Of a stretch of 64,000 nucleotides of DNA, positions 1 to 56,934 are shown in pieces. The stretch spans positions 62,739,741-62,803,740 of the forward strand of contig NC_083577.1 in the NCBI RefSeq assembly GCF_027579695.1, in the 5' to 3' direction. Made by a program: the position numbers and the translations under genes. The stretch is from Neoarius graeffei (lineage: Eukaryota; Chordata; Actinopteri; Siluriformes; Ariidae). The notes under the pieces were generated by a model. It was not told where the DNA came from and did no database searches. It saw nothing but the letters and a program-made list of their open reading frames with translations. The number at the start of each line of letters is the position of its first letter. The first letter of the stretch is position 1.

Positions 1-621
1 CAAAACGGGCGTAAAAGAGGTTTAAATCCTCAGCCAAGGTGGGACTGTCAGCTGAGGGTGGTGGTGTTTTCCTCTTATAGTCCATGATGGCCCTGATGCC
101 CTCCCAGACCTGCCTTGGGTTTGTGGTGGTGTCAAACCTGGCCTCAATACGCCTCCTGTGATGGTGTTTGGCAGTATTGATGCCTCTCTTCAGGTTGGCC
201 CTGGCAGCACTGTACGCCTCCTGGTCCCCATAGTGAAACGCAGAGTCTCTAGCTCGGATAAGCTGTTTTACTCCATGTGTCATCCATGGTGGTGTATTAG
301 GGAACACACGGAATTGCCTCCAGCAGGTGACATTGTCCACACAGAAGCAGATGTAATCTAAAACAGTGGAGGTATAATTGTCCAGTGAAACACGACTGTC
401 AGTGTCCTGCTCTTTGAATACATCTCAGTCTGTGTGGTGGAAACAATCCTGGAGCATAGGAACTGCGTCCACCGGCCATGTTCTCACAGTTTTGGTTGTG
501 ATCCCAGTGCTCTTGATCTTAGGTGTATACCGTGGGTGTAGCAGAAGAGAGAGGTGGTCTGACAGACCCAGGTGGGGGTGGGCCTGGGCCTTGTATGCGT
601 CTGCTACATTAGTATACACCT
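1..621 (-). mobile_element. LINE ORF2 fragment (endonuclease end and EN-RT linker)
   Basis: Read on the - strand, this stretch gives a continuous non-LTR retrotransposon polyprotein. It opens with the end of the endonuclease domain (LSDHLSLLLHP, the conserved SDH motif) at about 570-535, then passes through the linker between endonuclease and reverse transcriptase, with RVFPNTPPWMT near 310-280 and RQVWEGIRAIMDYK near 115-75. It runs off the window start before reverse transcriptase is reached. The 5' side is cut at about 621 by a SINE fragment. It is a dead fragment in this view; the family looks jockey/RTE-like but I cannot name it. Confidence 0.7.
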
Positions 622-7870: not shown

Positions 7871-8158
7871 AAGGCAAGGCAAGGCAAGGCAAGTTTATTT
7901 ATATAGCACATTTCATACACAGTGGCAGTTCAATGTGCTTTACAGAAGTAAAAGCAAAACAGTAAACAATAGAAAATAAAATTACATAAAATAAATGGGG
8001 AAGAAAAATAATAAGAATTAAACAAATGAGATAAAAGTTCAATTAAAAATAAAAAAGGCAGCAGAATATAATAGAATAAAAGTTAAGTAAAATTTAAAAC
8101 ATGGAGAGACTGTAAAAGTAAAGCGTTTAAAACATGTAGAGATGGCAATATTGATAAT

Positions 8159-10621
8159 TTAGCAGAAAGCATCTGAAAACAGCTTGGTCTTTAATCTAGA
8201 TTTGAAGCTGCCAACAGCAGGAGCATTTTTGATGTCCTCTGGCAGTTGGTTCCATAGCTGTACTGCATAGTAGCTAAAAGCTGCTTCACCACACTTTGTT
8301 TTAACAACAGGTTTTACCAGTAAATTTTTCTGCTGCGATCTGGTACATGGGCGGCACGGTGGTGTAGTGGTTAGCGCTGTCGCCTCACAGCAAGAAGGTC
8401 CTGGGTTCGAGCCCCGGGGCTGGCGAGGGCCTTTCTGTGCGGAGTTTGCATGTTCTCCCCGTGTCCGCATGGGTTTCCTCCGGGTGCTCCGGTTTCCCCC
8501 ACAGTCCAAAGACATGCAGGTTAGGTTAACTGGTGACTCTAAATTGACCGTAGGTGTGAATGTGAGTGTGAATGGTTGTCTGTGTCTATGTGTCAGCCCT
8601 GTGATGACCTGGCGACTTGTCCAGGGTGTACCCCGCCTTTCGCCCGTAGTCAGCTGGGATAGGCTCCAGCTTGCCTGCGACCCTGTAGAAGGATAAAGCG
8701 GCTAGAGATAATGTGATGTGATGTGTGATCTGGTACATCTGATTGGGTTAGGCCGCTGCAACATATCAGAGAGGGAACTGGGCCCTGTACCATTTAGAGA
8801 TTTGTACACCAGCAGCAATGCTTTAAAGTCAATTCTGTAGCTTACTGGAAGCCAGTGAAGGGACCTTAAAATTGGAGTAATGTGCTCTGTTCTTTTTGTT
8901 CGTGTGAGAACCCTAGCCGCAGCATTTTGAACCAGCTGAAGTCGTTTGATGGTTTTTTTTGGCAGGCCTGTGAAAAGGCCATTGCAGTAATCAACCCTAC
9001 TAGAGATGAAGGCATGTATAAGTTTTTCCAGATCATTTTTTGACATAAGTCCTCTTAGTTTGGAAATGTTTTTTAGGTGATAAAATGCCGTTTTAGTGAT
9101 TGCTTTCATGTGCCTGTCAAAGTTTAGCTCGCTGTCAATGAAAACACCAAGATTTTTAACCATTTCTTTTGTTTTAATCCCCTTTGTGTCAAGAATAGTG
9201 GTAATCCTGAGTCTTTCATCTTTTTTTCCAAATAGAATTACTTCTGTTTTATCTGTGTTCAGCTGAAGAAAATTTTGTGACATCCAGTTGTTGATTTGAT
9301 CGATACACTGGTAGAGACATTCAAGGGGGACATAATCATTAGGTGATAGAGCAAGATAAATTTGGGTGTCATCTGCATAGCAGTGATATGAAATTGAATT
9401 GTCCTTGATAATTTGCCCAAGTGGGAGCATATAAAGGTTGAATAGTAATGGTCCAAGAATCGACCCCTGGGGGACACCACAGGTCAAGGACATTGACGCT
9501 GAGGTACAATTTCCCATGGCAACAAAGAAGCTTCTATCTTTTAAGTATGATTTTAACCAATTGATAACTTTACCAGTCAACCCAACCCAATGTTCAAGTC
9601 AATATAGCAGTATGTTGTGATCAACAGTATCAAAAGCTGCACTGAGGTCCAGTAATACCAGGACCGATGTTTTGCCTGCATCAGTATTAAGACGCATGTC
9701 ATTTATAACTTTAATCAGTGCTGTTTCAGTGCTATGATTGGCACGAAATCCTGATTGAAAGTTATCAAAACAGCTGTTTGATATCAAGAAGGCAGTTAAT
9801 TGATTGAAGACAATTTTTTCAAGGATTTTCCCGATGAATGGTAGTTTTGATATTGGCCTGTAGTTATTTAATACTGAAGCATCCAGATTATTCTTTTTAA
9901 GTAGGGGCTTTACAACGGCTTTTTTCAAGGACACAGGAACAATGCCAGTCTCTAGGGATGTATTTATGATTTGAAGCACATCTGTAATTATAAGATGTAG
10001 AACAGACTTAAAAAGGTTGGTGGGCAGAATGTCCAATTCAGATGTTGAGGAACTGAGATTTTGTACAGTTTTTTCAAGAGTCTCATAATCAATTAAACAA
10101 AATTCTGACATTGTGTTGAAATCTGTCTGTGTCACTGGTGATTGCAGTTTTTCAATTATTTGCAACTGAGATATATTATGAGCAATATTATGTCGTATTT
10201 TATCAATTTTACCTTTGAAGAAGGATGCAAACTCATTGCATTTATTAACTGAGAGAAGTTCAGGTGCTAATTGTGGTGGGGGATTTGTTAGCTTCTCTAC
10301 TGTTGAAAATAGCACACGGACATTGTTCATATTCCTGTTGATGATGTTGGAGAAGAAAGACTGTCTTGCTTTACGAATTTCATAATTATATTTACAAAGC
10401 ATCTCTTTATGGATTTGATAATGGATGTGAAGTTTAGTTTTGCTCCATTTTCTTTCAGTCTTTCTACATTCTCTCTTTAACAGTTTAACAGCTGGGTATT
10501 GCTTCCATGGTGCTTTCTGCTTATCATTGACTCTTTTGATTTTGAAGGGAGCAATATCATCCATAATTTGGGTCATATTTAAATTAAAATGTTCCATTAA
10601 ATCATCTACAGAGTCTGACAT
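8159..10621 (-). pseudogene. LINE ORF2, reverse transcriptase and C-terminal region (broken)
   Basis: Reverse transcriptase blocks in order: [20 protein letters not shown] (10.0-9.85 kb), [26 protein letters not shown], then a frame change near 9600, GVPQGSILGPLLFNLYM, and the catalytic CYADDTQIY with YADD at 9379-9368. The C-terminal part carries LQNAAARVLT and LHWLPVSYRI and resumes past the nested SINE with LWNQLPEDIKNA, ending KLFSDAFC at 8159. The frame change around 9600 and the SINE make it non-functional. Confidence 0.85.
8349..8726 (+). mobile_element. tRNA-derived SINE inside LINE ORF2
   Basis: Complete copy; 12-bp duplication GATCTGGTACAT at 8337-8348 and 8727-8738. It interrupts the C-terminal end of the reverse transcriptase frame, so it is younger than the LINE. 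Confidence 0.92.
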
Positions 10622-10649
10622 TTTGGTTGAGATCCGAGAGAGAGCTTGC

Positions 10650-11501
10650 TCAAAGAGAACACGTGTTGTTGTTTATGACTCTCCTACCCATAGTCGTTGA
10701 GCTGTTCTGAATGTGAGGAGACATAGAAACATCAGAGAAAACACAAAAATGATCAGATAAGGCCAGGTCGACAACAGTAGTAAAAACAATAAGACCCTTT
10801 GTGATGACGAGGTCAAGGGTATGACCACGAGAGTGGGTCGGCCCCTGTACATGTTGTACTAGGTTGAAGTTGTCAATAAGTGCAAGTAGTTCATTGGCAT
10901 AAGTGTTTTCAGGATTATCTACATGCAAGTTAAAATCTCCAGATATAATAAGACAGTCAAACTCTAAGCAAATGACTGACAACAGTTCACCAAACTCTTC
11001 CAGAAAAACTTTGGCTGAATGTCTCGGAGGCCTGTAAATAGTTAATAATAATATGTTAGGAGAGCATGTAACAAGTGCACATAAGTGTTCAAAGGATGTA
11101 AAATCACCAAGTGAGGATTGTTTACATTGAAAAGAGAATTTGAATATATTTGCGATCCCTCCACCTTTCCCCTGTCGGGTAACATTCATAAAATTAAAAT
11201 TTGGGGGAGCTGCTTCAATAAGGGTGGTAGCACTATTTGCTTGATCCAGCCAAGTTTCAGTTAGAAGCAAAAAATCAAGATTATGTTTGCAGATAAGATC
11301 ATTAATTAAAAATGACTTGTTTGAAAGTGATCTAATGTTCAGAAGAGCTAGCTTTACAGAAAGTCTAGAAGTAATATCCGCTTGAGCACTCTGATGTTGT
11401 TTTGAAACAGGAAGGAGACTAGACTGGTTTACCCCCTGGGTTAAATATGCTCTATGTTTTCTATTTCTTATCAACACAGGAATAGAGAATGGCATAGGCA
11501 T
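10650..11501 (-). pseudogene. LINE ORF2, endonuclease domain
   Basis: Apurinic-type endonuclease (exonuclease-endonuclease-phosphatase fold), which nicks target DNA to prime reverse transcription. Visible motifs in order: ALLNIRSL, LLTETWLD, GGGIA, TIYRPP, ISGDFNLHVD, GHTLDLVIT and the terminal LSDHF. The motif order and spacing are complete. It is separated from the reverse transcriptase frame by a frame change around 10650-10620, so the original single ORF2 is broken here. Confidence 0.85.
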
Positions 11502-11815
11502 ACTGGGTCCCAGCTTGTTTTCAAAACAACACCCAATGCAGGGACCCCCAGCATATCATACTAGACTTTCTTTATGTTCCATTCTGTTTGAGATTAAGAT
11601 TGGAGATGTCATGTATCTTTTAGATGGTGAAAAAGATTCGAAGCTAGCTGAAAGTCCTGGGCGAACACAGTTCAGTCTGTTGGTTGATTTTTGATGAACT
11701 GGGTACACAGCTTGTCGCGACAGATTTGGGCTGGAAAAAGAGAGTGTAGCCATTGGCAGCAGTCTCTGCATACTATTAGGGAAATCCATGCAGGGGGGAG
11801 ACGGAGATGGTATGA

Positions 11816-13150
11816 TCAAATCCGAAGAGCGAGATTTTGGTGAGGCCATTTTAAGCGTCTCCATGACTTTCTCTGTGGTGACTGTCTCACTGTCTCTGTG
11901 ATAGTTGCATGGCGTCGAGAAGTGGACGCATGCTCACAATCTCCGTATGATTGTTGTTGTCCTTGGCAGTCTGCCCCAGATGGTTCTTGGCAGTCTGCCC
12001 CAGATGGTTCTTGGGAGTCTGCTCCAGATGGCTGTGTGTCCTTGGTCACAGACGATTGTTTTGGCATTGCGGAGGTATTGTTGATATTGACTAGGTCAGT
12101 CTGCGATATCTTATCAACTGTTCTCTTCAATGTTGACTGACAGAAAATTTCAAGTCTATAATGATCTGCTAAAACTTTGGTCCCAATCCAGCTGAGTTCA
12201 GTGCTGTTCGGCTTGAAGAATTCTCTGGGATTCCAGAAAAGGTTAAAATTGTCTATAAAGTTCATACCAGATGAAAAACAAGTTTTTCCAAGCCAGGTGT
12301 TAAGATTGAAGAGTCGAGTAAATGCAAAGCTTCCCCTTGCAGGGAGTGGGCCACTGATAAAAGATTGTATTCCGGTCTTATAGAGATGAGAAAAGAGTTT
12401 TTTGAAGTCCTCTTGGACAAACAGCTGTTCTCTGAAAACATAATTTGCTCCCACATGTACAACAATGCGTTTGATAGTTTTATGCTCGGACATGAGTTTC
12501 AAAATGCTGTCTTTAGTGTCAGAGATGGATGCATTTGGAAGGCAGCAAATAATCATTCCATGTCCTTTTAAATGTCGTATAGTGGAATCACCAAGAACAA
12601 GGGTTGTGGGATCAGGTGGTGTTACGAGCTGCTTTTTGCCTCTTCCCACAGCTCTTCGGTTGTGATGCAATTTCTTTTTACGATGCGTTTGTCCGTCTGA
12701 AAATTCCGCTTCCACATCCCTGAGGCATTCAAATTTGTTCTGAAGCCTTATGGGCTGTGGATTTTCCATAGGATTGTAAATCTTAGACTTAGCTCTATTT
12801 CTGATAGCATGGCTGTGAAGCATGGGTTGCATAGTATCAGCACAAGCTGGTGTTGAGGTAAAAACTCTGTCTGGTTTGGTTGAGGTAATAACTTTGTTTT
12901 TATTTTCATCTGTACTCACATTGTGCCCTGTTAGATCGATGAATTCATCCACTCGATCTGCAATGTCATCGGCTTGTCGGGGTACATTCTCTGCATTCTC
13001 AGCCACTGTTTCTGTACTCCTTTCCTGAGATATCGCTCTTAATTCGTCAGTCTTTGGCTGAGCATCAATCTTTGATTCCAGGATAGAAATCCTCTGTTCT
13101 AGTTCTATGCATTTTCTGCAGGATCTCCTAGATTTTTTGCCTCCTGGCAT
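11816..13150 (-). CDS. LINE ORF1 protein with SGNH esterase-like domain
   Basis: A 444-residue open frame starting MPGGKKSRRSCRK. It has a basic Cys-containing start, a short heptad coiled coil (IELEQRISILESKID, residues ~16-30), an acidic linker, then an SGNH/GDSL-hydrolase-like domain (residues ~185-330) with VLGDSTI as block I and VHVGAN as the G-x-N block. The C-terminus has repeats of (D/E)PSGAD(C/S)Q. ORF1 esterase domains are known from CR1/L2-type LINEs. The usual terminal D-x-x-H catalytic block is not apparent near STELSWIGTKVLADHY, so hydrolase activity is doubtful. The frame is intact, but it belongs to a dead element. Confidence 0.75.
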   Translation of the reverse strand: MPGGKKSRRSCRKCIELEQRISILESKIDAQPKTDELRAISQERSTETVAENAENVPRQADDIADRVDEFIDLTGHNVSTDENKNKVITSTKPDRVFTSTPACADTMQPMLHSHAIRNRAKSKIYNPMENPQPIRLQNKFECLRDVEAEFSDGQTHRKKKLHHNRRAVGRGKKQLVTPPDPTTLVLGDSTIRHLKGHGMIICCLPNASISDTKDSILKLMSEHKTIKRIVVHVGANYVFREQLFVQEDFKKLFSHLYKTGIQSFISGPLPARGSFAFTRLFNLNTWLGKTCFSSGMNFIDNFNLFWNPREFFKPNSTELSWIGTKVLADHYRLEIFCQSTLKRTVDKISQTDLVNINNTSAMPKQSSVTKDTQPSGADSQEPSGADCQEPSGADCQGQQQSYGDCEHASTSRRHATITETVRQSPQRKSWRRLKWPHQNLALRI

Positions 13151-13368
13151 TTTGTTTTAAAAGCTAACTTATCTTATAAAGATGAAAAATAAAATGAAAA
13201 AATAGTGGAAATTAAAAGCTTATAAAGATGAAAAATAAAATGAAAAAGTAGTGAAAATTAAATGAGAAAGTAAAGTAAAATAAAGATCAAGCAGGAGCAA
13301 AGCAGGAGCAAAGCAAAGAAATAAACATATATCACAATGACCAAATTTCAAAGGGAACTTTCACCAAT

Positions 13369-13515: not shown

Positions 13516-26043
<12,528 letters not shown>

Positions 26044-28145: not shown

Positions 28146-28454
28146 TGTAAAACTTGGAGTGGGCGGGTGGAGCACAGAAGTATGGCAGGCCAGAACTGAG
28201 TTCTCAAAACTCTTTATTTTCAGCTTTTCAGCTTTACAAACCCCCAGTCACACAGACAAGCACACATACATCAGTCGTCTGGTCAGGGAGAGAGCTCTCT
28301 TCCTCTGCTCTCTCTCTCCTTATATAGGGTGTGGTCACTGGGGAAGACACACAAACAGGTTAATTGACATCAGGTGTAGTGATTCTGCCACTTACCTTCC
28401 TTGGCTCCGCCCTCCGGTCACAGACCGACGCTTGACCACGCCCCCGCTGCCACA
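28146..28454 (-). repeat. 3' LTR of the Gmr1-like element
   Basis: 309 bp with a TATA-like CTATATAAGG near 28325 and a pyrimidine/purine run. Differs from the 5' LTR by several substitutions and small indels. Confidence 0.92.
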
Positions 28455-29988
28455 TACCCCCACCGCCCGACTCAGGCCGGGCAGCCATCCGGCCTGCAGC
28501 CGACTCCCTCTACCCCCTTGATGGGAGAGGAAGTCCGCCATGACCATCTGCGCCCCCAGCCTGTGGACCACCTTGAAGTTAAAGGGTTGGAGTGCCAGAT
28601 ACCAACGGGTGATCCGCGCGTTGGCATCCTTCATGTGGTGGAGCCACTGGAGGGGCGCGTGGTCCAAACAGAGGGTGAAAGGGCGTCCCAGCAGGTAGTA
28701 GCGGAGGGCGAGGACCGCCCATTTGATGTCCAGGCACTCCTTCTCTATGGTGCTGTAGCACCCCTCACGCACTGACAACTTCCTGCTTATATACAGCATG
28801 GGGCGATCCTCCCCCTGCACCTCCTGGGACAAAACAGCCCCCAGCCGTCTGTCCAACGCATCCATCTGCAACATAAAGTGGAGAGAAAAGTCAGGGGAGT
28901 GTAACAGTGGCCCCCCACACAGTGCAGCCTTCACCTCAGAAAAAGCCCGCTCGCATTGCTCCATCCACTGGACCGGATCTGGTGCCCCCTTTTTAGTGAG
29001 ATCAGTCAGTGGGCTGGTGACGTCCGAATAATTAGGTATAAACCTACGATAGTAGCCAACCAGCCCCAGGAACTGTCTCACCCCCTTTTTGGTCTTGGGC
29101 CTCGGGTGGGCTGCAATCGCTGCTGTCTTATTAATTTGGGGACGCACCTGCCCATTGCCCAAGTGGAAGCCCAGATACCATACTTCCACCTGCCCAATCG
29201 CACACTTCTTCGGGTTGGCCGTGAGACCTGCTCACCTCAGCGACCCAAGGACGGCCCTCAGGTGTTGCAGATGCCGCGGCCAGTCGTTACTATAGATTAT
29301 GATGTCGTCTAAGTAGCGGCCTAGTAGGTGGCATGGGGGTGGAGGACCCTGTCCATAAGCCACTGGAACGTAGCAGGCGCCCCAAACAGCCCAAAAGTAA
29401 GTGTGACAAATTGATGTAAGCCAAACGGTGTGGAAAAGGTCATTTTTCTCAGGATAGCGGAGTCAAGGGGATCTGCCAATAACCCTTTGTCAAATCCAGT
29501 GTCGAATAAAAGCGAGCCGTGCCTAGTCAATCCAGCAACTCGTCAATACGAGGCATTGGGTACGCATCGAATTTAGACACCGCATTGATTTTTCTATAGT
29601 CCACACAGAACCAGACCGACCCGTCGGCCTTGGGAACCAAGACCACTGGGCTGCTCCAGTCACTGTGGGACTCCTTGACGATGCCCATTTCGAGCATGGC
29701 CTCGAGTTCTTCCTGAACCACCTTTTTCTTGTGTTCGGGTGGCCTGTAAGGGCGGCTGCGTACTACCACCCCTGGGGGCGTCTCAATGTGGTGTTCTATG
29801 AGGCGGGTGCAGCCGGGCAGGGGTGAGAACACATCTGAAAATTCGGTCTGCAACTGGGCAACCTCCATTAGTTGGGTCAGGGAGAGGTGGTCTCCACAGG
29901 GGACCGGAGAGGTAAGCGATGTCAATGTTCCTTTTTGAACCTCCGGCCCCAGCTCTGCCTTCTCCAGAACCACCGACATCAACGCCAC
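28455..29988 (-). pseudogene. Gmr1-like element: reverse transcriptase and RNase H
   Basis: In element order: RT entry (RPYRPPEHKKKVVQEEL, MGIVKESHSDWSSPVVLVPK, FCVDYRKIN), the middle (TFSTPFGLHQFVTL, FGLFGAPATFQWLMD), the catalytic YLDD at 29315-29304, and the thumb (GVRQFLGLVGYYRRFIPN). RNase H follows with LQMDALDRRLGAVLSQ, YSTIEKECLDIKWA and LDHAPLQWL. The chain shifts frame near 29530, 29320 and 29190. It ends next to the 3' LTR, with no integrase after it. Confidence 0.88.
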
Positions 29989-31531
29989 GGGGACCTCCTC
30001 ATTCCAGAGTTTAAGCAGATTGAGGTGGTAAATCTGTAGCGCCCCACCTCATAGTCAACGTCCCCGACTCGCCGTGTGATCTCAAAGGGTTCTTGCCACT
30101 TGGCGATCAATTTGGAGCTCGACGTGGGCAACAGTACGAGTACTTTATCTCCCAGTGCGAACTCCCTAAGGCGCGTACCCCTGTCGTACAGGCGGCTTTG
30201 CCGTTCTTGGGCCTGCAGCAAATTCTCCTGGGTTAGGTGTGTGAGTGTGTGGAGTTTTGCGCGCAGGTCCATAACGTATTGAATTTCGTTTTTGCTCGGT
30301 GAAGGTCCCTCCTCCCAATTTTCCCGCAGTACATCTAGGATGCCGCGCGGCTTATGCCCATATAATTCGAACGGGGAGAACCCCGTGGAGGCTTGTGGGA
30401 CCTCTCACACTGCGAATAACAGGAGTTCAAGCCATTTATCCCAATTACGTGCATCCTCGCTTACGAATTTTTTAATTATATTCTTGAGTGTGCGGTTGAA
30501 CCGTTCGACTAAACTGTCCGTTTGTGGGTGATAAACGCTGGTGCAGATCGGCTTAATTCCCAATAACCCATACAGTTCGCGCAGTGTGCGTGACATAAAC
30601 GAAGTGCCTTGATCAGTCAGAATCTCTTTGGGGATTCCGACTCAGGAGATGATGTGGAAGAGCGCTTCCACAATACTGGGTGCTGAGATATTGCGCAGAG
30701 GCACGGCTTCCGGGTATCGCGTTGCATAGTCCACCAGGACTAAAATAAAGCAATACCCTCATGTTGACCGATCTAATGGCCCGACGAGATCCATCCCAAT
30801 TCTTTCGAACAGGGTCTCGATTAATGGTAGAGGGCACAAGGCGCTTTTGGAATGGCCACTGGATTTACTAACTTGCACTCACGGCATGCCGTACACCACC
30901 TACGGACATCGCCATGAATCCCTGGCCAATAGAACCGGGCCATTATTCGGGCTAGTGTCTTATCCTGCCCCAAGTGTCCAGCCATGGGATTAAAGTGAGC
31001 TGCCTGGAATACCAATTTCCAGCGGCTCTTTGGGATCAAAAGCTGCATGATCTGCTCTTTAGTCTGAGTGTCCTGCGTCACTCGGTATAATCTATCCTTC
31101 ATAATAGAGAAATAGGGGAAGGACGGGGTGGCGTTTTGCTGGAGCGTTTGACCATCGATTACTCTCACTTGGTCAAACGCATGCCACAGAGTCTCGTCTC
31201 GCGACTGCTCTAATGGGAAATCCGCGAGCGATTCCCCGAGAGAGGGAGGAGGAGCCTGCTGCTCCTCACTCTGACACGGAGATGATGTAGATGGCTCTGT
31301 GACAGCTGCTCCTGCCAATGCCACACCAGGACCTCCCCCGGCTGAACTACAGCAGGACCCACTCTTCACTAAATGACTCATTAACTCCTGAAATCCCAGC
31401 CAATCAGTCCCCAAAATTATTGAGTGGGTAAGGCGAGGATTAACCGCCACCTTTACACTAAATTTCTCCCCTCGAAATAGAATGTGGACCGACACTAAAG
31501 GGTAGTCGTGAACATCCCCGTGCACGCACAC
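29979..31531 (-). pseudogene. Gmr1-like element: protease end and integrase
   Basis: The first part ends the aspartic protease (NPRLTHSIILGTDWL). Then come the integrase zinc-binding HHCC domain (HFNPMAGHLGQDKTL ... CTACRECKLVN, 31.0-30.86 kb), the catalytic-core remains (SVYHPQTDSLVERFNRTLK at ~30530) and the C-terminal part (RLREFALGDKVLVLLP). Frames change near 30830, 30610 and 30400, and the N-terminal part of the core is decayed. It lies upstream of RT in element order. Confidence 0.86.
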
Positions 31532-31965
31532 AACATCTTCACCACTTGTGCTCTCCCCAATGCCTCATCTTGCACCAGGCTTTGGTGGATTGAGGTCTGA
31601 TTACAGCCAGAGTCCACCAAAGCCTGATACGTAGCCCCTTGGACACTCACCGGTATGCGATACGCTCCGGCCCGATCCAGGGCGGTTCCTGGCGCGTCGG
31701 GGATCTGGACCACTGCGCCCACCTCCATTGCTGAGCACTGATGCTGGAGGTGCCCCGGCTCCCCGCAGCGCCAGCAAACCGGCCCGGGCTTTCTCTCTGC
31801 ACCGGTGCTCTTGGGCTCACTCACCTGGGGGGGGGGGGGGGGGGGGGGGGGAGACAGACACGGAAGCGGGAAACGGGAGGGCACCACAGGTGTGACGGGC
31901 CGGCTGGGGTGCAGCTGGCCTCCGCCTCCATGGTGGGGGAATGGGGTGAGGATGAGACACAGAAG

Positions 31966-32010
<45 letters not shown>

Positions 32011-32724
32011 AGAGGAGATCTGCGCTCCTGCCATGGGAACAGCCGCCAAATGATCCTCCGCCAACTTGATAGCCTGATCCAGTGATGCCGGGTGATGGCA
32101 CTGGACCCACTCCGCGGTCCCTTCAGGAAGTCGGGCGATGAATTGCTCCAGTGCCACCAGATCGACAATTCCCTCAGCGTCGCGATTGTTAGCCCTCAGC
32201 CACCACTGGCAGGCATCCCGGAGTTGCTGGCCAAACTCGAACGGGCAGCCGACCTCCTCCAGGAGTAGAGCGCAGAAGCGCTGGCGTTGTTGTTCTGGGG
32301 TGTGCCCCACACACTGGAGGACGGCCTGGCGCAGGTCCATGTAGACCAGCCGGCTGTCGGCGGGGAGCTGTAGTGTGGCCAGCTGCGCCTCACCCATTAG
32401 CAGGGGGAGGAGGCGCGCCAAGCTCTGCTCCACCGGCCAGCCACTGGCCTCTGCTGCTTGCTCGAAGAGTGCTAGGAAGGCCTTGGGGTCGTCGTGCAGG
32501 CCCATCTTCGTTAGGGTGAGGTGGGGAGTGCCTGCGGCGGTGGAGGTGGTGGACCCTGCCGCCGCGAGGAGGTGCCGGAACGCCTGACGATCTTCTTGTT
32601 GTGCCAGCACCAGGGCCTCGAACCTTTGCGCTTGCTCCTTTCAGAAGGTGACCAACACCTGGTGCTGGCTCTGTTGGGCTGTGGCGAGGGCATGGACCAG
32701 GTCCGCGAAGGGGGAGGACTCCAT
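31495..32724 (-). pseudogene. Gmr1-like element: gag with zinc knuckle and protease start
   Basis: Gag begins at ATG 32724 (MESSPFADLVHAL), meets an in-frame TGA at 32643-32641, and then stays open to 31495. It has an alpha-rich capsid part (AFLALFEQAAEASGWP), a CCHC zinc knuckle (CWRCGEPGHLQHQC) near 31760, and the protease active-site motif ALVDSGCNQT near 31620. A poly-Pro/poly-Ser stretch is encoded by a pure G run (31829-31850) and a (GA)n run (31969-32005), probable expansions. It overlaps the next frame, where protease continues. Confidence 0.86.
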
Positions 32725-40296: not shown

Positions 40297-43200
40297 TCAG
40301 CTAAAGGATGATGAAGAGGGCATAGGTGTTTTTGGTACAGGGAACACCACTCTCTTCGTCAGCGTGTATTCTGGCTGTGGCATCTGCTTCCTGGTTCCCG
40401 TTCTGTCAGCCTTCTGGCTCACTTCGTTGTTCACTTCAGTCAGGATGGACAGTAGATCAATACCACTACATGCACAAAAATAAAACACAAAAGGAAAATA
40501 TAACAAAGTCCATAAAGTAGTTTATGCTAATGTTCTTAAACTTCTGTGCAATCTCATCTTCTAATGACTGTGAAATGTCTAAAGATAATGCACAAAAGAC
40601 TCGTCTACTGATTCATAAAAATGACATGATGGTTGGATAAATCTATCTTCAAGGACAAGTCATAATATAACTGAAACTGTCTTCAGCCCAAAACTTTTTT
40701 TGTGGTCTTATAAAACCTCATGACAGTGCAGGTTAGAGTTCAAATTTCATCAATCTTTATTTTTTAAAAATGCCACCAGAACTGAAGTGGTATTGGTATA
40801 GGATGAAGGTTTTCTTAAGATCACCGCCTGATTAATTAAAAATATTTAAACACAGTTTTAAAACCAAAATTTTTAAACCTAAATTTTACAACAAAAAACT
40901 GAGTGTTAGTGGATGAACCTGCTACCAGAATCAAATCTATGCAATATATAGCAAATATATCATTTTTTCCATTACTGTATTTCGCAACCCGCTTAATTTC
41001 CTGTTCAGAAATTGGCTATTCCACAGAGCAAATCTAATATTTAGTCTGCCTTTGGAGTCTTTGGCTTAAATAAATTACATCACACAAGTGATCAACTACA
41101 GAAAATAGCAGGATGTGGTCTGTGCATGCTCACCTGGGCACAAGCTGCTGCAGGTTCTGACACAGTGACTGCATGAACCAGGTTCCTCTAACTTTGTCTC
41201 TGAATGAGACATAACCTGGCACCGTCGCCATGGCCAATAGGTAGTCGGCCCCTGCAGGTATAGACTGTCTGGGTATTTGAGCATCACAGAAGAGGCCCGT
41301 TTCCATGTCTGAGGTGTTGTTAGAACTATCCGGCTGAAGGAAGACCACTTGCTGATTTTGACTGCCCTGACAGGCCTGGATGAAGAAGAGTTTGGGCTTT
41401 TCTTTGAGGGAAGGGCAATGATGACCATTCAGTCTCTCCATCAGCTCCTTTAGAAAGACTTTCCCTCCATCCACCCCATACAGACCACCTCCAAATCCAT
41501 GAGTCAGCACACAGCACACCACGCAGTCGGCTTGAGTGTGATCTCGACTGCGCAGTTCATCCAGAGCACTCAGCATGCGGTCCTTATTGCAGTCCTGCTT
41601 TATCACAGTTTCAAACCCAAGCCACTTGAACACAGCAGCCAAACTCTCTGCGCGTGCACACACACACACACACACACACACATAACCCACTGTAATCCTA
41701 TTGCCCCAAAATAGTTGACGTTGGCTTAAAAGCATGATGACTTCTTAACTGTTTCAGTGAGAGAAGTTTTTTTGTGAATATAAAACAAACTGTGGCTATA
41801 TACAAAATACATTTACATGAGTTTGTAAATGTATTTCATATATTAATGTTTGGATCAGTTTAATTCATCTTTGTAGGTGTCAGAGTGACAATTTAGACAC
41901 AATAGATTTTCATCCATGAACTATCATCCATTTACAGTATATGAGTGTATATTGTACTGAACCTATAGCTATAAAATATTCAGTTGTTGTGAACAATAAT
42001 ATGATCATGAAACCATCATAAAGGTTAACATACATCTGCAGTAATTACTCAGTGGCACAGCTCAAAATACAACATTTCATGCTACTACAACAGTTGGTTT
42101 GAGTTTACATGCATTATTTGTGCTTACTCTCATCTATGTCTGTCCCCTCTCTGTTATTCAAATGTGGACATTGTGAGAAATCATAGTTGTTGATGATCAA
42201 GGCAAATCCTCTCCAATCTCCATTCATGTCATATCGCTTCAGCTTCTGCAGCACAAAGTACAACAAGCTGTCAATTCCAGACCAGACACATACACACATG
42301 CATGCACACATGCACCACAAAACTTCAGAATTACTAAATGAGAGAACATTACCAGTGCGTTATTTTTGATTACGCTCACTAAAGCTCAGGTTTTTGTCAC
42401 CTTGGACAAGGTTTTGAGTTTCAGAAAGACTTAACCGAGCAAGCTGTGCCTGTACAACATCACCTGGAGGCCATCTACTTGCATCTACTTCAGAACTGTT
42501 TCGTGACCGATTATTTCACCTTCATGATGGATGCAGAAGGTTCTGACAGCTGCTGGGAGGCACTTACCATTGAATGGAAGTTTATGGATGAACAACAGCA
42601 GCGCTTGCACACGATGGACACCAAGATCACTTAGCCTACGGACATGCTTACCCAGATGGCGCCCACATGCCAAACCGCAGGGGCATTTCCCAACTCACTT
42701 ATTCCTCATTCAAATAAGCTTTCAGGTGAAACTGCTCTGTGCAAAGGCTTCCTGCTCCAGTGTTCACTGTACTCCGCTGGCCAGTAAGACACATCCGATC
42801 AAGCCAAGACTGCACAATTCATCAATCTGCTCACTGACAAAGCTCTCTGCTAGGCTACGGTGGTATGGGGAAAGGAGGGCGAGACTCTTTCCTCTTATGC
42901 TTGCTTCACGGAGGTTTTCCGATGTATGTTTGACCACACACCAGAGGGCAAGGAGATCGGTAAGCAGCAACTCGCTGTAAAGCATGGGTACAGCAAGCAG
43001 CCAAGTAGGCACTGGAATTCCACACACTTGCAGCTGGAAGTGGGTGGAATAAGCCTGCGTTGAAAGCTGTATTCCACAACAGATGGAACTGGCATGCCAA
43101 ATTGGACAAGTGTCATCCAATTCCCTCATTGACCTGACGATTCGCCTCAATAATCTTCTCTGAAACCACAGAGTGTACCAGGAACCCTTCAGCACAGTAA

Positions 43201-49829: not shown

Positions 49830-50200
49830 GGGCGGCACGGTGGTGTAGTGGTTAGCGCTGTCGCCTCACAGCAAGAAGGTCCGGGTTCGAGCCCCATGCC
49901 GGTGAGGGCCTTTCTGTGCGGAGTTTGCATGTTCTCCCTGTGTCCGCGTGGGTTTCCTCCGGGTGCTCTGGTTTCCCCCACAGTCCAAAGACATGCAGGT
50001 TAGGTTAACTGGTGACTCTAAATTGACTGTAGGTGTGAATGTGAGTGTGAATGGTTGTCTGTGTCTATGTGTCAGCCCTGTGATGACCTGGTGACTTGTC
50101 CAGGGTGTACCCCGCCTTTCGCCTGTAGTCAGCTGGGATAGGCTCCAGCTTGCCTGTGACCCTGTAGAACAGGATAAAGCGGCTAGAGATAATGAATGAA
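49830..50200 (+). mobile_element. tRNA-derived SINE
   Basis: Complete copy; CCGAAGAG flanks at 49822 and 50205 are the likely target duplication. It sits beside the unrelated older copy. Confidence 0.85.
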
Positions 50201-50348
50201 TGGGCCGAAGAGCCATCTAGTGGGCCATAACATTTTTTCAAGTTTGAAGCCAAATACTAAATAATTCAGGATGTCGTAGGGTCACAAATCCAGTAGCTGG
50301 TTTGCTGTATACTTTTCAAGTGGAATAAATACATTTGTGGGTAAATTA

Positions 50349-51535
50349 ATTCTTCTCCGTGCTCTCACGGAAGGCGGTCACATTTATCTGCCTCTACCTT
50401 CCCTTATCTTTCCTGCTTCTGCTGTCTCGTCTGTCTATTGTCTATACTTTTGAGAGACTCTCTCCGCACTGCTCTCCAAACTAAACATCATGGAATTGAT
50501 AAACTGGTCTCTTCACGCAATTGACACAATCTTCTCGATGAGAAGCCTGGGTTCGGGGGAACCAGCCTATCCTGCCGGAACGTTCACAGCTGGCTACACG
50601 ATAGACGCGTGGGAGAGGTGGCGGGTCGTGTGCCTGGCGGTTCTTTCTGTGAAGAACATTGAAGACATCTACCTATTCGGAACCATGATTACAGGACTTT
50701 TGCTGATTGGATTAGGCATTGCCCTGGTTTATCGAGGAAATCAGAAAACAGTGACAGCTGTTCAAAGCCCCATAAAGCTGCCCGACGTGATTGAAGCGGT
50801 GGGCAGAGCTGTCGGCACTCAGACTGTGGCTATTCAGAACTTGAACCGCAACATGGATAACATCATGGAGAAGCTTTTGGCTTTGCAAAGGAAAATGGAT
50901 CGATTCGGAGACCAGAATGGACAAACAGAGTAGTCGTGTAAAGGAATGCATCTACTCGCCCCAAGACCAAACAATCCCAATCTTATCTGCTTTCGGCTCC
51001 CTCAGATAGCACTGGCCTTGGCCAAGGCCGTTACTGGGACAACAACTCCCCCCCCCCGAAGATCACTGCTGTTAGACTCTCTCGTATTCCTTCCCCCACT
51101 TCCCATGGTCGCCGCTTTTACCCCCAGTATGACAAGTGGGTAAGCGCCGTCTTCGGCTGCAGGACCGGACTGCTTGTTTGCGCTGGGTTACCTATACCTC
51201 TGCCCCCCCCCCATGATCGCCCCCTCCCTCACCCCTTCCCCCTCGAGTCCCGAGTCATGTGTAAAGTGTACTGTGTTATTTTTGTGCTTATGTGCTGAGG
51301 TGTTTTTTTTTAATGTTCCCACACTGTACTCCCCACAGGAGCATAGTGTGGGGGTTGCTTTTTTTCTCCTCCCCTCCCCTCATGTTACTCTGTATTTTTC
51401 ATCCCTGTCTTCCTGTCCTGTCTACTCCCCGTGTCAATTGTATGTATGTGTATATGTACTGACGGGTTGACGGCTAATTTCGCTGGTACTTGTGACTAAG
51501 TGACAATAAAGGGTTAATTCATTCATTCATTAAGA
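50349..51535 (+). mobile_element. Unrecognised retro-element with a single membrane-protein ORF, copy 1
   Basis: Runs from a pyrimidine-rich leader (TTCTTCTCCGTGCTCTC) through the 147-aa frame, a C-rich 3' region, an AATAAA at 51504-51509 and an (ATTC)n tail. A perfect 25-bp direct repeat (core ACATTTGTGGGTAAATTA) flanks it at 50324-50348 and 51629-51653, about 95 bp beyond the tail on the right. A second, 5'-shorter copy is at 55505-56160. No reverse transcriptase, transposase or pol III box is seen. Confidence 0.65.
50490..50933 (+). CDS. Small single-pass membrane protein of the retro-element, 147 aa
   Basis: The ATG at 50490 (MELINWSLHAIDTIF) has an A at -3. The product has a 56-residue N-terminal part rich in Gly, Pro and Trp (WERWRVVCLAVLSV), one strong hydrophobic segment at 61-81 (YLFGTMITGLLLIGLGIALV), a basic stop-transfer YRGNQK, then an amphipathic, coiled-coil-like helix from about 99 to 140 (NRNMDNIMEKLLALQRKMD). 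I do not recognise the family. Compared with the copy at 55.5 kb, codons 57-91 (membrane segment and flank) differ at 7 sites, all synonymous, which suggests selection on the protein while the family was moving. It could be a captured host or viral-type gene or the accessory ORF of an autonomous element; no function is claimed. Confidence 0.7.
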   Translation: MELINWSLHAIDTIFSMRSLGSGEPAYPAGTFTAGYTIDAWERWRVVCLAVLSVKNIEDIYLFGTMITGLLLIGLGIALVYRGNQKTVTAVQSPIKLPDVIEAVGRAVGTQTVAIQNLNRNMDNIMEKLLALQRKMDRFGDQNGQTE

Positions 51536-51571
51536 AGAATAAGCATTTGTCACATTTAACCCACGCGCGCG

Positions 51572-51577
<6 letters not shown>

Positions 51578-51607
<30 letters not shown>
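51578..51607. repeat. (GA)n microsatellite
   Basis: AGAGAG run after GCGCGCGCACACA. Confidence 0.85.
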
Positions 51608-51609
<2 letters not shown>

Positions 51610-51872
51610 GAGCACAGCAGGCTGAATAAATAAATACATTTGTGGGTAAATTATATGGATCTGTGATGCCTGCTGGAAGAGAAGCGCAGGGAGGATTGAG
51701 AATCAAGTGGCTGTGGTTTATTTACACCCGATACTAAAACTTGTAGCGTCCTAGCAACCTTCTCAAAGACGTGTACAAAAAGCCCAGAAACTCCTATTTA
51801 CCCAGGCAAAAACAATACAGGATTTATCTTGTAGTGTCCTGATCCCCAGATCTTTAACCCAGACACATATAA

Positions 51873-51989
51873 AAAGTTGCATACCTCTATGCTCTTCCAG
51901 GTTTTCATCTGTGTGTCCATGTAGAACGATTTCTGCAGCACCAGGTAGTTTGAGATGTCAGGGAAATCAACAGATGGATAATTTTCCAA
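51873..51989 (-). pseudogene. Fragment of a SWIM/YqaJ-type transposon-derived protein
   Basis: The - strand reads MENYPSVDFPDISNYLVLQ, SFYMDTQMKTWKSIEVCNF. This pattern (DIxNYLVLQTSFYT..QMKA.KSLEAYNF) is familiar from fish predicted proteins with SWIM zinc-finger and YqaJ-like nuclease domains. Only the leading ~39 residues remain. Confidence 0.5.
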
Positions 51990-52116
51990 CTCCTAATGAA
52001 TGAATGAATAAATAACTTTATTTAAACACAATAAGTTGATCAGCAGAGCTGATGGAGTTGGGCATGTACAGATATAAATAATTACAAATACAAAAGACTA
52101 AAAATATACACAATCT

Positions 52117-52455
52117 TCTCATCTCATTATCTCTAGCCGCTTTATCCTTCTACAGGGTCGCAGGCAAGCTGGAGCCTATCCCAGCTGACTATGGGCGAAA
52201 GGCGGGGTACACCCTGGACAAGTCGCCAGATCATCACAGGGCTGACACATAGACACAGACAACCATTCACACCTACGGTCAATTTAGAGTCACCAGTTAA
52301 CCTAACCTGCATGTCTTTGGGGTTAACCGGAGCACCTGGAGGAAACCCACGCGGACAACATGCAAACTCCACATAGAAAGGCCCTCGCCGGCCCCGAACC
52401 CAGGACCTTCTTGCCGTGAGGCGACAGCGCTAACCACTACACCACCGTGCCGCCC
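52117..52455 (-). mobile_element. tRNA-derived SINE
   Basis: Reverse copy with internal deletions; duplication TACACAATCT at 52107-52116 and 52456-52465. Confidence 0.9.
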
Positions 52456-52465
52456 TACACAATCT

Positions 52466-53196
52466 TTTTAAAAAAAAAAACTTAAAACCTGTTAATTATC
52501 TTCACATTAAGTTAATTAATAGTATGCATAACTATTGTCTTTGTATTTAGTTACGGCTACAATAAGATCAAAATTTATTCAACTAATGTCAAATTTAGCT
52601 AGTAAATTTTTCTTCATAGGAAAAATCCTTCTTTGTTCACGTGTAAGGATCTAATCCCACTGAGTGGTTTTTATATCCATTTCTTTTGATTGTACTTCTT
52701 GGTTTTAATAACTTGCTTATTTACTGTACACAAACATAGCAATAAGTTCTTGTGTTAATGAACCAGACTCCACTTTTGGATCATTAATCCCTTTTGACTG
52801 AGAATTCCCTGCATCCTTGGTTTTATGTTGGCTTCTGGCACATCCATACAGTTTTAAATACAATACAATACCTACAATTAAAAACAGTTTGATTTTATTG
52901 CATTTATTTAATTCCTGGGCTCCCATCTGTGACAGGGAGTGATGTTGCATCCCATTAGTACACTTTACAGTAGATTATTAGATTCTAATAGAATAGATGA
53001 GCCAAAATAATTAGGGATCTTTTTTAATGGGCCCCGACTTGTTACAAGTATGAATAGGTGGGCCTTAAAGTACGCTACTCACTATTTACAGATGTTTTAA
53101 CTGTGTTTTCATTTAATATGTTCATTGTGAATTTTAGAAAAGCTTGGTGATGAAATTGGAAAATATTGAAGATTTTCTAAACCATCTTATTGTTGT
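52466..53196. other. No gene supported
   Basis: AT-rich. A 77-residue - strand frame (52950-52717) has one hydrophobic run (IKLFLIVGIVLYLKLYG) but no homology I recognise and no splice context. Confidence 0.35.
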
Positions 53197-53564
53197 GGGC
53201 GGCGCGGTGGTGTAGTGGTTAGCGCTGTCGCCTCACAGCAAGAAGGTCCGGGTTCGAGCCCTGTGGCCGGCGAGGGCCTTTCTGTGCGGAGTTTGCAAGT
53301 TCTCCCCGTGTCCGCGTGGGTTTCCTCCAGGTGCTCCGGTTTCCCCCACAGTCCAAAGACATGCAGGTTAGGTTAACTGGTGACTCTAAATTGACCGTAG
53401 GTGTGAATGTGAGTGTGAATGGTTGTCTGTGTCTATGTGTCAGCCCTGTGATGACCTGGTGACTTGTCCAGGGTGTACCCCGCCTTTCGCCCGTAGTCAG
53501 CTGGGATAGGCTCCATCTTGCCTGCAACCCTGTAGAACAGGATAAAGCGGCTACAGATAATGAG
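53197..53564 (+). mobile_element. tRNA-derived SINE
   Basis: Complete copy; 13-bp duplication ATCTTATTGTTGT at 53184-53196 and 53565-53577. Confidence 0.92.
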
Positions 53565-53944
53565 ATCTTATTGTTGTTATTGCTGTGAAAAATTAATTGT
53601 AGAAGGTTAATTAGGTCAACATCTTAATATGTAGTCTACTCTCTATTAAACTAATGAGCATGGCCTGAGCCCCTCACCACATACCCTACACACTCATATG
53701 CACTCACTGGCGAACTTATATTGTGCAACAATATAATCATGTGCCTTAAATAGTTCTTATATCTGTTCACATATGGCCTAATGTCAAAAACAAAGTATTG
53801 CTGTTGTCTGCTGCATTGCACTATATATTGCACATTTAAATAATATTGGCTGGCACGGAGTTGTATATCAGATATATTCCATTCAGCTAGCATGATATTG
53901 AACGAGTTATAGTTTCAGAGGGAAGTTTAACTTTAAAACCTTGA

Positions 53945-54118
53945 GTGCGCGCACAAAAAAAAAGACATTTTAGTGTTTCCATATATGGAATAAAACTTTG
54001 GAACAGTCTGAATGTGAAGCTAAAAGAATACCCAAACATCAAACAATTTAAGAAGAAATACCTCATAAAAACCATTTATTTGTATGAGCCTGAACACCTG
54101 TGTTACTTAAACACCCTC
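53945..54118 (+). mobile_element. LINE ORF2 C-terminal fragment
   Basis: RHFSVSIYGIKLWNSLNVKL followed by IKQFKKKYLIKTI matches the usual C-terminal end of fish non-LTR retrotransposons (xLWNSLP). 53578-53944 before it shows nothing. Confidence 0.6.
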
Positions 54119-54145
54119 TTCAGTCTCATACAAATAAATGGTTTT

Positions 54146-54516
54146 CTCATCTCATCTCATTATCTCTAGCCGCTTTATCCTTCTACAGGGTCGCAGGCAA
54201 GCTGGAGCCTATCCCAGCTGACTACGGGCGAAAGGCGGGGTACACCCTGGACAAGTCGCCAGGTCATCACAGGGCTGACACATAGACACAGACAACCATT
54301 CACACTCACACCTACGGTCAATTTAGAGTCACCAGTTAACCTAACCTGCATGTCTTTGGACTGTGGGGGAAACCGGAGCACCCGGAGGAAACCCACGCGG
54401 ACATGGGGAGAACATGCAAACTCCACACAGAAAGGCCCTCGCCGGCCGCTGGGCTCGAACCCAGGACCTTCTTGCTGTGAGGCGACAGCGCTAACCACTA
54501 CACCACCGTGCCGCCC
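54146..54516 (-). mobile_element. tRNA-derived SINE
   Basis: Complete reverse copy. TTTACTTATAC-type sequence at its right edge adjoins the next MITE. Confidence 0.88.
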
Positions 54517-54530
54517 CGTATTTACTTATA

Positions 54531-55045
54531 CCAGTCAAAAGTTTGGAAACACCTTCAAATTCGATTTTTTTTTCCTACATTGTAGAACAATACTGAACTC
54601 ATCAAAACTATGAAATAACCTTATGGAACATATGGAATTATATGGTAAACAAAAGTGTTAAAAAAAACACGTTTCATCTTTTAAATTCTTCAAAGTTGTC
54701 ACTATTTACCTTGAAAACAGCTTTGCACACTGTTGGCATTATCTGAACCAGCTTCATGAGGTAGTCACCTGGAATGCTTCTCAATTAACAGGTGTGTCTT
54801 GTCAAAAATGAAATTTCTTGCCTTCTTAATGCATTTGACACCATCAAACAGTAAAGAGTAAATAATAAAAATACAGTAAATAGCCCTGTTCGACAACTGT
54901 AGTAATCCATATTATGTCAAGAACCACTCAACTAAGTAAAGAGAAATAACAGTCAGTCATTACTTTAAGACACGAAGTGTCTTTTAGTTAATTAAAATAA
55001 AGAAAAAAACATCGAATTTGAAGGTGTTTCCAAACTTTTGACTGG
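54531..55045. mobile_element. Tc1/mariner-type MITE with long inverted ends
   Basis: The ends CCAGTCAAAAGTTTGGAAAC and their exact complement extend about 35 bp; TA flanks at 54529-54530 and 55046-55047. No transposase. Confidence 0.92.
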
Positions 55046-55073
55046 TACTGTGTATATTATTTACACACACAGC

Positions 55074-55430
55074 CATCCATTATCTGTAGCCGCTTATCCT
55101 GTTCTACAGGGTCGCAGGCAAGCTGGAGCCTATCCCAGCTGACTATGGGCGAGAGGCGGGGTACACCCTGGACAAGTCACCAGATCATCACAGGGCTGAC
55201 ACATAGACACAGACAACCATTCACACTCACATTCACACCTACGGTCAATTTAGAGTCACCAGTTAACCTAACCTGCATGTCTTTGGACTGTGGGGGAAAC
55301 CAGAGCACCCGGAGGAAACCCAAGCAGACATGGGGAGAACATGCAAACTCCACACAGAAAGGCCCTCGCCGGCCGCTGGGCTCGAACCCGGACCTTCTTG
55401 CTGTGAGGCGACAGTGCTAACCACTACACA
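55074..55430 (-). mobile_element. tRNA-derived SINE, head truncated
   Basis: Reverse copy of the GGATGG-tail subfamily missing the last ~20 bp of the tRNA-like head. Confidence 0.85.
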
Positions 55431-55504
55431 TTTATTCAAAGTCCTCCTCCATGGAAAAAGTGGGCCGGGTTTGGGCATGAAACTCCCAGGCCCTACACAC
55501 ACAC

Positions 55505-56160
55505 ACAATCTTCTCGACGAGAAGCCTGGGTTCGGGGGAACCAGCCTGTCCTGCCAGAACTTTCACAGCTGGATATACGATGGACGCTTGGGAGAAGTGT
55601 CGTGTCGTGTGCCTGGCGGTTCTTTCTGTGGATGACATTGAGGATATTTACCTATTCGGAACCATGATCACAGGACTTTTGCTGATTGGACTAGGCATTG
55701 CCCTGGTGTATCGAGGAAATCAGAAAACGGTGACAGCTGTTCCAAGCCCCATAAAGCTGCCCGACATGATTGAAGCGGTGGGCAGAGCTGTCGGCACTCA
55801 GACTGTGGCTATTTAAAAACTTGAGCCGCTTGGTGGATTCCATATTGGAGAAGTTGATGGCTTTGCAGAGAGATATGGATCATTTTAATGACCAGAATGG
55901 ACGAGCGGGGTAGTCTGCCACGTCTACCTGTTTCAAGTCTAAACAAATTCCAATCTTATCTTCAGCTCTCCCAGCCAGCACTGCCTCAAGGTCACTGCTG
56001 GAGCAACAATCTTCCCCTGAAGATGACTGCAGTTAGACTCTCTCTCTGTATTTCCTATTATTTCCTATTATTCCCTACTATTGCACCATTCCTGTGTTTT
56101 GTTTGTTTGTTTTGTGTGTATGCTTTTATCTGTGTTGTACTATGAAAGCTAAGTGGTACC
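55505..56160 (+). pseudogene. Copy 2 of the membrane-protein retro-element, 5'-truncated and frame-broken
   Basis: Homology to copy 1 starts at ATCTTCTCGACGAGAAGCC (55508), inside the ORF, so the leader and first ~12 codons are missing. The frame stays open through the membrane segment and stops at GTQTVAI, where CAG became TAA with one added A (55815). The rest is still recognisable to about 56060. The 5' truncation is what reverse transcription from the 3' end would leave. Confidence 0.75.
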
Positions 56161-56934
56161 GGCACTTTTTTTTTTTTTTAAGGATTTTCCACTAGGAGAC
56201 CAACTCGTCTGGGCAATACAATCACAGGCCATGCGGCTGCACCGCTGTGGCATATTCTGTGATGCAAATTGCCGCATTATGAATCCTCGTTTCAGCCAGC
56301 ATAATATCAACATAGTTAATGCAGTGCCAAGTTACCATAACTTCATCATAAGTATGGTAAAATACTAAAATTACACTATGAGTTTAAGTTATTGTTTTAT
56401 CAACTTTCATATTATGTACAACCCCTGGCAAAAAGTATGGAATCACCCGTCTTGGATGAGCACTCATTCAGGCGTTTTATTCTGTAGAACAAATTGAGAT
56501 CACAAACATGATACAATAATAAAGTCATTCCAAAGTGCAACTTCTTGGCCTTCAGAAACACTAAAATAAACGAAGAAAATACATTGTGATAGTCAGCAAA
56601 TGTTACTTTTATAGACCAAGCACAGGGAAAAAAAATATGGAATCACTCAATTCTGAGGAAAAAAATATGGAATCACTCAATTTTCAGGTAGAAAATAAGG
56701 ACTCACCCAGTCAATTTCCTTTCCCTAAATTGACACCTGCCTCAGATTAGATCTGCTCGTTAGTCTGCAGTTAGAAACAGCGCAGTTATCACACCTTGGA
56801 GGGCTGCTGGACCAAGTGGATTGGCAAGAATCATGGCTCCAACAAGAGAGATGTCTCTTGAAACCAGGGGCGCAGATAGGATTTTTGAACTGGGGGGGAC
56901 TGAGCTGTCAGCAAATGATTCCATTTTGTGTATA

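Follow-up and report, generated by a model that had tools for sequence, protein, structure and literature searches.

Results

Organization of the element

The window, i.e. the whole stretch of 64,000 nucleotides that was analysed, carries two copies of a small element on its plus strand. The first, a member of subfamily A, occupies positions 50349-51531 (1.18 kb), and its ends are common to near-full copies found elsewhere in the genome. It begins with a 5' untranslated region (50349-50489), the first bases of which are the start of 39 of the 44 near-full copies, and continues with the predicted ORF of 147 codons plus stop (50490-50933), which has a good start context (ACATCATGG) and whose frame is intact here and in part of the A copies elsewhere. 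The ORF comprises a conserved part, codons 1-115 (50490-50834), including a membrane helix (residues 62-80; 50673-50729), and a fast-changing helical, coiled-coil-like tail, codons 116-147 (50835-50930). The 3' untranslated region contains a strong RNA hairpin (51316-51354, plus strand; -23.7 kcal/mol, z -3.65), and the element terminates with a CAATAAAGGG(TTCA)n-type 3' end (51504-51531), in which the AATAAA signal (51505-51510) and the (ATTC)n tail of the original prediction were both found.

The insertion is flanked by two identical 25-mers, the first directly upstream (50324-50348) and the second at 51629-51653. The outer ends of this direct repeat had been taken for the ends of the element (50324 and 51653); the element itself is bounded at 50349 and 51531, because the 44 near-full copies share those starts and ends, the A copies elsewhere beginning just past the point equivalent to 50348. 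Some 97 bases (51532-51628) separate the tail from the second repeat; they were not seen behind the tail in any of the 43 other near-full copies.

The second copy (55503-56162, plus strand) is cut at both ends and is 82% identical to the first over 55503-56044. Its 5' truncation was confirmed, the copy beginning at 55503. It was expected to share the 147-residue frame, but its remnant ORF (55508-55816, plus strand) covers codons 14-115 and then stops with a TAA, its 3' end is cut at about 56162, and its sequence assigns it to a second subfamily, B, the copies of which are matched by its 3' untranslated region as far as 56162.

Elsewhere in the window, on the minus strand, frames resembling the gag-pol of an LTR retrotransposon (28395-32640) and two similar caspase-like frames with a QACQG motif (18570-19190 and 41133-41744) were recognized by eye, the latter being possibly duplicated genes.

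Features of the encoded protein

The single membrane helix described originally was confirmed, residues 62-80 (Kyte-Doolittle mean 2.32) forming the only hydrophobic stretch that stands out. An AlphaFold model computed on 17 sequences was of low confidence (mean pLDDT 46.6) and placed helices at 57-86 and 97-145, the second of which agrees with the coiled-coil-like tail noticed earlier. Acidic residues precede the membrane helix and basic residues follow it. The positive-inside rule relates the charge flanking a membrane helix to topology, and by this rule the C-terminal helical part would face the cytosol.

No Pfam family was over the cut-off for the 147-residue protein, the nearest being DUF6476 (20.8 bits for the second copy and 16.2 for the first, cut-off 24), and the protein has no known RNA-binding domain. 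A sequence search of the PDB gave coiled-coil matches near chance (best E 0.026), confined to the helical residues 66-138; the coiled coils of paramyxovirus phosphoproteins are among them. These weak matches, together with the small size of a membrane protein bearing a helical tail, could be read as the trace of an endogenous virus, a fragment of which, coding for an envelope-like or fusion-type membrane protein, would have been spread by LINE enzymes. The near-chance level of the matches speaks against such an origin, as does the lack of any relative among 50,697 phage records and IMG/VR, two collections poor in animal viruses, and we consider it very unlikely.

An autonomous LINE encodes an endonuclease and a reverse transcriptase. 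In the 1.18-kb element the longest frame is a 159-codon one containing the ORF, and no Pfam domain is over the cut-off, so that the reported absence of an enzyme holds. SINEs are headed by a pol III promoter and lack coding capacity, and the LINE-tailed SINEs of fish are small and non-autonomous, with a 3' tail shared with a LINE. The element is likewise small and non-autonomous; it differs from them in that an Rfam search of 50200-56600 (E up to 1) gave no match at all, and so no tRNA, 7SL or 5S head, in agreement with the lack of a pol III promoter noted at first, and in that its ORF is conserved between subfamilies.

A multicopy family with shared ends

A 33-base core of the ORF, allowing up to 3 mismatches, occurs at 2049 sites in the 2.34-Gb genome (38 contigs), against 0 for the reversed control. 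The element is therefore real, far beyond chance, and about two thousand ORF-core copies, segmental duplicates included, is a fair minimum. Copies were gathered by a whole-element DNA search (best 40 of 3499 candidates scored, 41 matches listed with the window copy) and by a protein search (best 150 of 2923 candidates scored). Among the 44 near-full copies, that of the window included, 39 have their start in the first 10 element bases, at (A)TTCTTCTCCGTGCTC or a close variant of it; in the remaining 5 the start is displaced inward by 20-35 bases. Almost every one of the 44 ends with CAATAAAGGG(TTCA)n, its core CAATAAAG(TTCA)n or a variant, followed by unrelated flanks; L030, L031 and L043 deviate from this 3' end. 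The window element is thus one copy of an interspersed family. As the 44 copies were picked for reaching both ends, they are uninformative on the frequency of truncation; 5'-truncated copies are represented by L041, L064, L085, L092 and the second copy of the window. Target-site repeats of A copies are short or absent: a rightly placed match of at least 6 bases was found in 7 of 39 copies, whereas 200 permutations gave 1.9 copies on average and 5 at most. A uniform 3' end with a tandem repeat, some 5' truncation and no LTRs place the family among the LINE-type (non-LTR) elements, and these repeat-tailed ends, with the number of ORF cores, support the small retro-element first proposed and show it to be abundant.

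The original prediction had also considered that the copies might be processed ones from an ordinary host gene, and the single continuous ORF, its good start context and the AATAAA signal could speak for this. Such copies would be expected to carry a poly-A tail, and here (TTCA)n or (TTCTGA)n stands in its place; about two thousand ORF cores, subfamilies with their own shared untranslated regions and a hairpin module located at either end argue further against this origin, to which we attach next to no credence.

Some copies depart from the common structure. L050, L065 and L068 (C25:7.2-8.3 Mb) have unbroken ORFs, are 92-94% alike over 1.3 kb downstream and share some 200 additional bases behind element position 767; they are probably segmental duplicates. 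In L030, an older 3' untranslated region (481-1002, 70% identity), with a hairpin loop of the B type, lies directly behind an A copy, as if two members had been joined.

Two subfamilies and a shared RNA hairpin

For subfamily B, a search with the 3' untranslated region of the window copy listed 40 copies; ten of these were read, which gives 11 with that of the window. Seven of the ten begin with ATCCAAGATGGC, a GATGGC 5' end located about 80 bases upstream of the point matching the A start, and three are 5'-truncated. The B copies end with CAATAAAAGTG(TTCTGA)n or near variants. A and B consequently possess unlike 5' ends and unlike tails around a common ORF. GATGGC-like starts are known as YY1 sites in L1 promoters, and we take the B start to be of this kind. 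In seven of the 11 copies, that of the window among them, a TAA follows directly after codon 115; the four others have CAA at this place, and two of these (L086 and L090) have an unbroken frame of 144 codons. The frame is unbroken to codon 115 in 8 of the 11. Thirteen of the 40 listed B places, 12 of them on the minus strand, are clustered at C2:122.3-126.2 Mb of the genome (G000), probably by segmental duplication.

The hairpin of the A 3' untranslated region has a relative in the 5' untranslated region of B (60 of 78 bases alike, E 3e-11). In 42 chosen A and B sequences, those without length change, 95.7% of the cells are paired, and the covariation score of 0.128 exceeds that of shuffled sets (0.089; none of 500 reached the observed value) and of slid controls (0.018-0.069). 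Two pairs are C-G in A where B has U-A or the reverse, the switch being from C-G to U-A. As many pairs with changes on both sides arose in 164 of 500 shuffles, and as many pair types in 456 of 500, and the both-side changes stem almost all from the single split between A and B, so the data support, and do not prove, a conserved RNA structure. Since the hairpin sits at different ends in A and B, it may act as a cis-acting module. The folds of the 3' tails of A and B are no more stable than those of shuffled sequences (z -0.13, 0.09 and 0.06).

Conservation of the ORF between and within subfamilies

Majority letters were derived for A from the window copy and 39 copies ranked by whole-element DNA, and for B from the 10 copies ranked by 3' untranslated DNA and the window copy, so that neither set was chosen by protein. 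Between the two majorities, 29 of 127 sites differ in the 5' untranslated region, 15 of 345 in codons 1-115, 27 of 99 in codons 116-147 and 26 of 130 in the 3' flank. The low-divergence block coincides at both ends with codons 1-115, and its contrast with the two flanks together (55/257) is marked (p 1e-10). Third positions account for 12 of its 15 changes (p 3e-4), and 11 of the changes are synonymous against 4 non-synonymous, i.e. a dN/dS of about 0.13. The third positions themselves are less changed than the untranslated regions (12/115 vs 55/257, p 0.013), and exchange of ORF blocks between the subfamilies, or a constraint on the RNA, may add to the low divergence. In keeping with the conserved membrane protein first described, codons 1-115 are the most conserved part between subfamilies, and this divergence pattern makes the membrane part look selected in the source elements.

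The seven codon differences between the two window copies over codons 57-91, all said to be synonymous, are indeed so; this is the best stretch only, and over codons 14-115 the count becomes 12 synonymous to 10 not (22 differing codons), for which reason the all-synonymous stretch was rejected as proof of selection. Pairwise dN/dS values with L080-L083 were left out of the verdict because these copies had been picked by protein similarity.

Within the young subfamily A, selection is barely visible, as would be expected of a family with few source elements whose other copies are dead on arrival. Among 49 near-full copies, some of them chosen by protein, the terminal branches hold 303 non-synonymous and 180 synonymous changes (omega-like 0.84) and the internal branches 42 and 27 (omega-like 0.81); changes to stop number 15 vs 29.8 expected on terminal branches and 0 vs 4.9 expected on internal ones. 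In the 40 DNA-ranked A copies, the frame is unbroken in 23, including that of the window, interrupted by stops in 12 and frameshifted in 5.

This near-neutral evolution inside A, together with the amplification of B copies coding for a truncated product, would be in agreement with a passive SINE-like passenger, the ORF being a not-yet-decayed fossil and the protein inert. On the other hand, codons 1-115 are far more conserved between subfamilies than the untranslated regions, with an excess of third-position changes, more than half of the A copies retain the frame and the internal branches lack the expected stops, and we regard such a passenger as unlikely.

Search for a putative mobilizing LINE

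The B tail occurs at 630 sites genome-wide and the B 5' end at 238, compared with 133 for the B 3' untranslated region adjoining the tail. No listed B 3' untranslated region adjoins 21 of 37 exact B tails. The 5' sites were compared on 100 of the 238, with 100 of the 133 3' untranslated sites and the list of 40 copies: a listed B 3' untranslated region lies within 6 kb downstream for 28 of the 32 listed sites with 0-1 mismatch and for 18 of the 68 with two mismatches. By these counts, other elements seem to share both B ends, and the excess of tails is the pattern that would arise if a parasite had taken its tail from a larger family. In contrast to the B tail, the A tail (153 sites) has no excess pointing to a partner. 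An L2 tail pattern in (TTCTGA)n occurs at 29 sites in the genome.

These counts bear on another explanation, in which the element is an internally shortened autonomous LINE that has this protein as ORF1, the lost ORF2 being supplied by full-length sisters. Both B ends outnumbering the B 3' untranslated region, and the 50 of 68 two-mismatch 5' sites with no listed B 3' untranslated region within 6 kb, fit this explanation, and Table 1 of PMC4120745 includes an L2_1 subgroup of L2 LINEs with an ORF1 devoid of recognized domains. Against it, among the sites listed, the B 5' sites devoid of a B 3' untranslated region have none of the 37 exact B tails within 8 kb, and no ORF2 was found at a consistent place beside the ORF in the fetched copies with queries from two LINE types. 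The 150 best of 116248 reverse-transcriptase candidates do not overlap the listed B tails (contigs C1, C2, C4 and C5, compared by eye), a result of little weight. We hold this shortened LINE to be possible but doubtful.

Copies lying within a longer LINE had also been named at the outset as a case that would overturn the proposal. No LINE was found at a fixed place around the 39 copies read with 1-kb flanks or the 30 more with about 1.3 kb, and tblastn with the reverse transcriptases of the two LINE types gave pieces near 6 copies. One of these candidates, L045, was rejected as an element with its own reverse transcriptase: a LINE with a (TTGAC)n tail is inserted at element position 977 and the element resumes behind it. 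Three places on C21, where protein matches and A tails stand 5.4-8.5 kb apart, looked like an autonomous version; one of them, L078, proved to be two separate family pieces about 4 kb apart. An 1823-residue open frame on C16 (L079, C16:61330800-61338300) was due to about 5 kb of N that begin straight behind element position 542.

The window itself contains, on the minus strand, an L2-type LINE (7900-13156; type assigned by eye) that ends with (CTTGC)n and into which a common repeat is inserted. Its ORF1 (11819-13156) is GDSL-like, and it has frames for endonuclease/reverse transcriptase. It was discarded as tail donor, its tail being different from that of the element. A LINE ORF2 fragment (2-424, minus strand) is 37% identical to the LINE inserted in L045. 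According to PMC4176376, zebrafish L2 LINEs copy only RNAs bearing their own 3' stem-loop, and for this reason the two different tails of the family suggest, by analogy, two LINE partners.

Discussion

We give about an even chance to the explanation in which the family is a non-autonomous LINE-type one, moved in trans by a LINE of the CR1/L2 group, and its protein acts as a membrane-anchored ORF1p. The element RNA has a LINE-like 3' tail, in which a short tandem repeat follows a CAATAAAG-type motif; the endonuclease and reverse transcriptase of such a LINE would copy it in trans by target priming. The protein, whose single membrane helix (about 62-80) lies between a short N-terminal domain and a helical tail that should be cytosolic by its charges, would be made on the ER and self-associate. 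It may hold its own RNA at the membrane, perhaps via the hairpin of the untranslated regions, and the membrane-held RNA would have a higher chance of meeting the LINE enzyme; selection would keep the protein at the level of the source elements. The lack of an enzyme in the element and of a LINE at a fixed place around it supports mobilization in trans. The near-neutral ORF inside A, the weak target-site repeats, the absence of any sign of a partner for the A tail, the tail folds at the level of shuffled sequences and the seven B copies that lack the helical tail in their product, and yet have spread, count against this explanation. So do the low divergence of third positions, which an exchange of the ORF block would equally explain, and the both-side pair changes of the hairpin, whose number many shuffles reach. 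A bolder version, in which a selfish RNA with its own membrane anchor has kept its N-terminal module through at least one change of tail and partner and gathers its RNA via the moved hairpin so as to capture LINE enzymes, appears to us rather improbable.

HAL1 (half-L1) of mammals is a non-autonomous LINE derivative that keeps the L1 ORF1p without the reverse transcriptase. The present element resembles it in keeping an ORF1-like protein, in the absence of a reverse transcriptase, and probably in borrowing the enzyme. It differs from HAL1, which keeps the RNA-binding L1 ORF1p and has poly-A tails, by the membrane helix of a protein with no known RNA-binding domain and by tails made of tandem repeats; strictly speaking, it would be a HAL1-like derivative if its partner LINE codes for this protein as well. 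The zebrafish LINEs ZfL2-1 and ZfL2-2, as presented in PMC4176376 and PMC3905857, likewise have specific 3' tails with repeat units, and unlike the element they encode an endonuclease and a reverse transcriptase. The ORF1p of ZfL2-1 is described in PMC3905857 as a coiled-coil esterase, not membrane-spanning, unlike the protein of the element, and a membrane role was proposed for it from its lipid binding. In the LTR elements of bdelloids, a short ORF3 with membrane helices and a coiled coil can lie downstream of pol (PMC5408684); its product is also a small membrane protein with a coiled coil in a retro-element, whereas LTRs and pol are both missing from the present element.

LINE ORF1 proteins are mostly regarded as RNA-binding. 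A survey of 448 Jockey-superfamily elements distinguishes ORF1s with RRM, CCHC, PHD or esterase domains, plus an unclassified type, and the word "membrane" occurs twice in its accessible text, both times in the passage on esterases (PMC4120745). In the research literature, the field covered here as distinct from Repbase and Dfam, no description of a membrane-spanning LINE ORF was found in the texts accessible. If the bolder version is true, the protein would be a membrane-spanning ORF1, of a kind absent from the ORF1 types in that survey, save its unclassified type V. Why some LINEs involve lipids or membranes is a standing question, raised by the ZfL2-1 esterase and by the requirement of LINE movement for ESCRT (PMC5478143). 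An abundant parasite with a membrane protein as its sole conserved product would offer a direct test of whether membrane-anchored RNA aids retrotransposition, and would further demonstrate that a protein module can survive a change of LINE partner.
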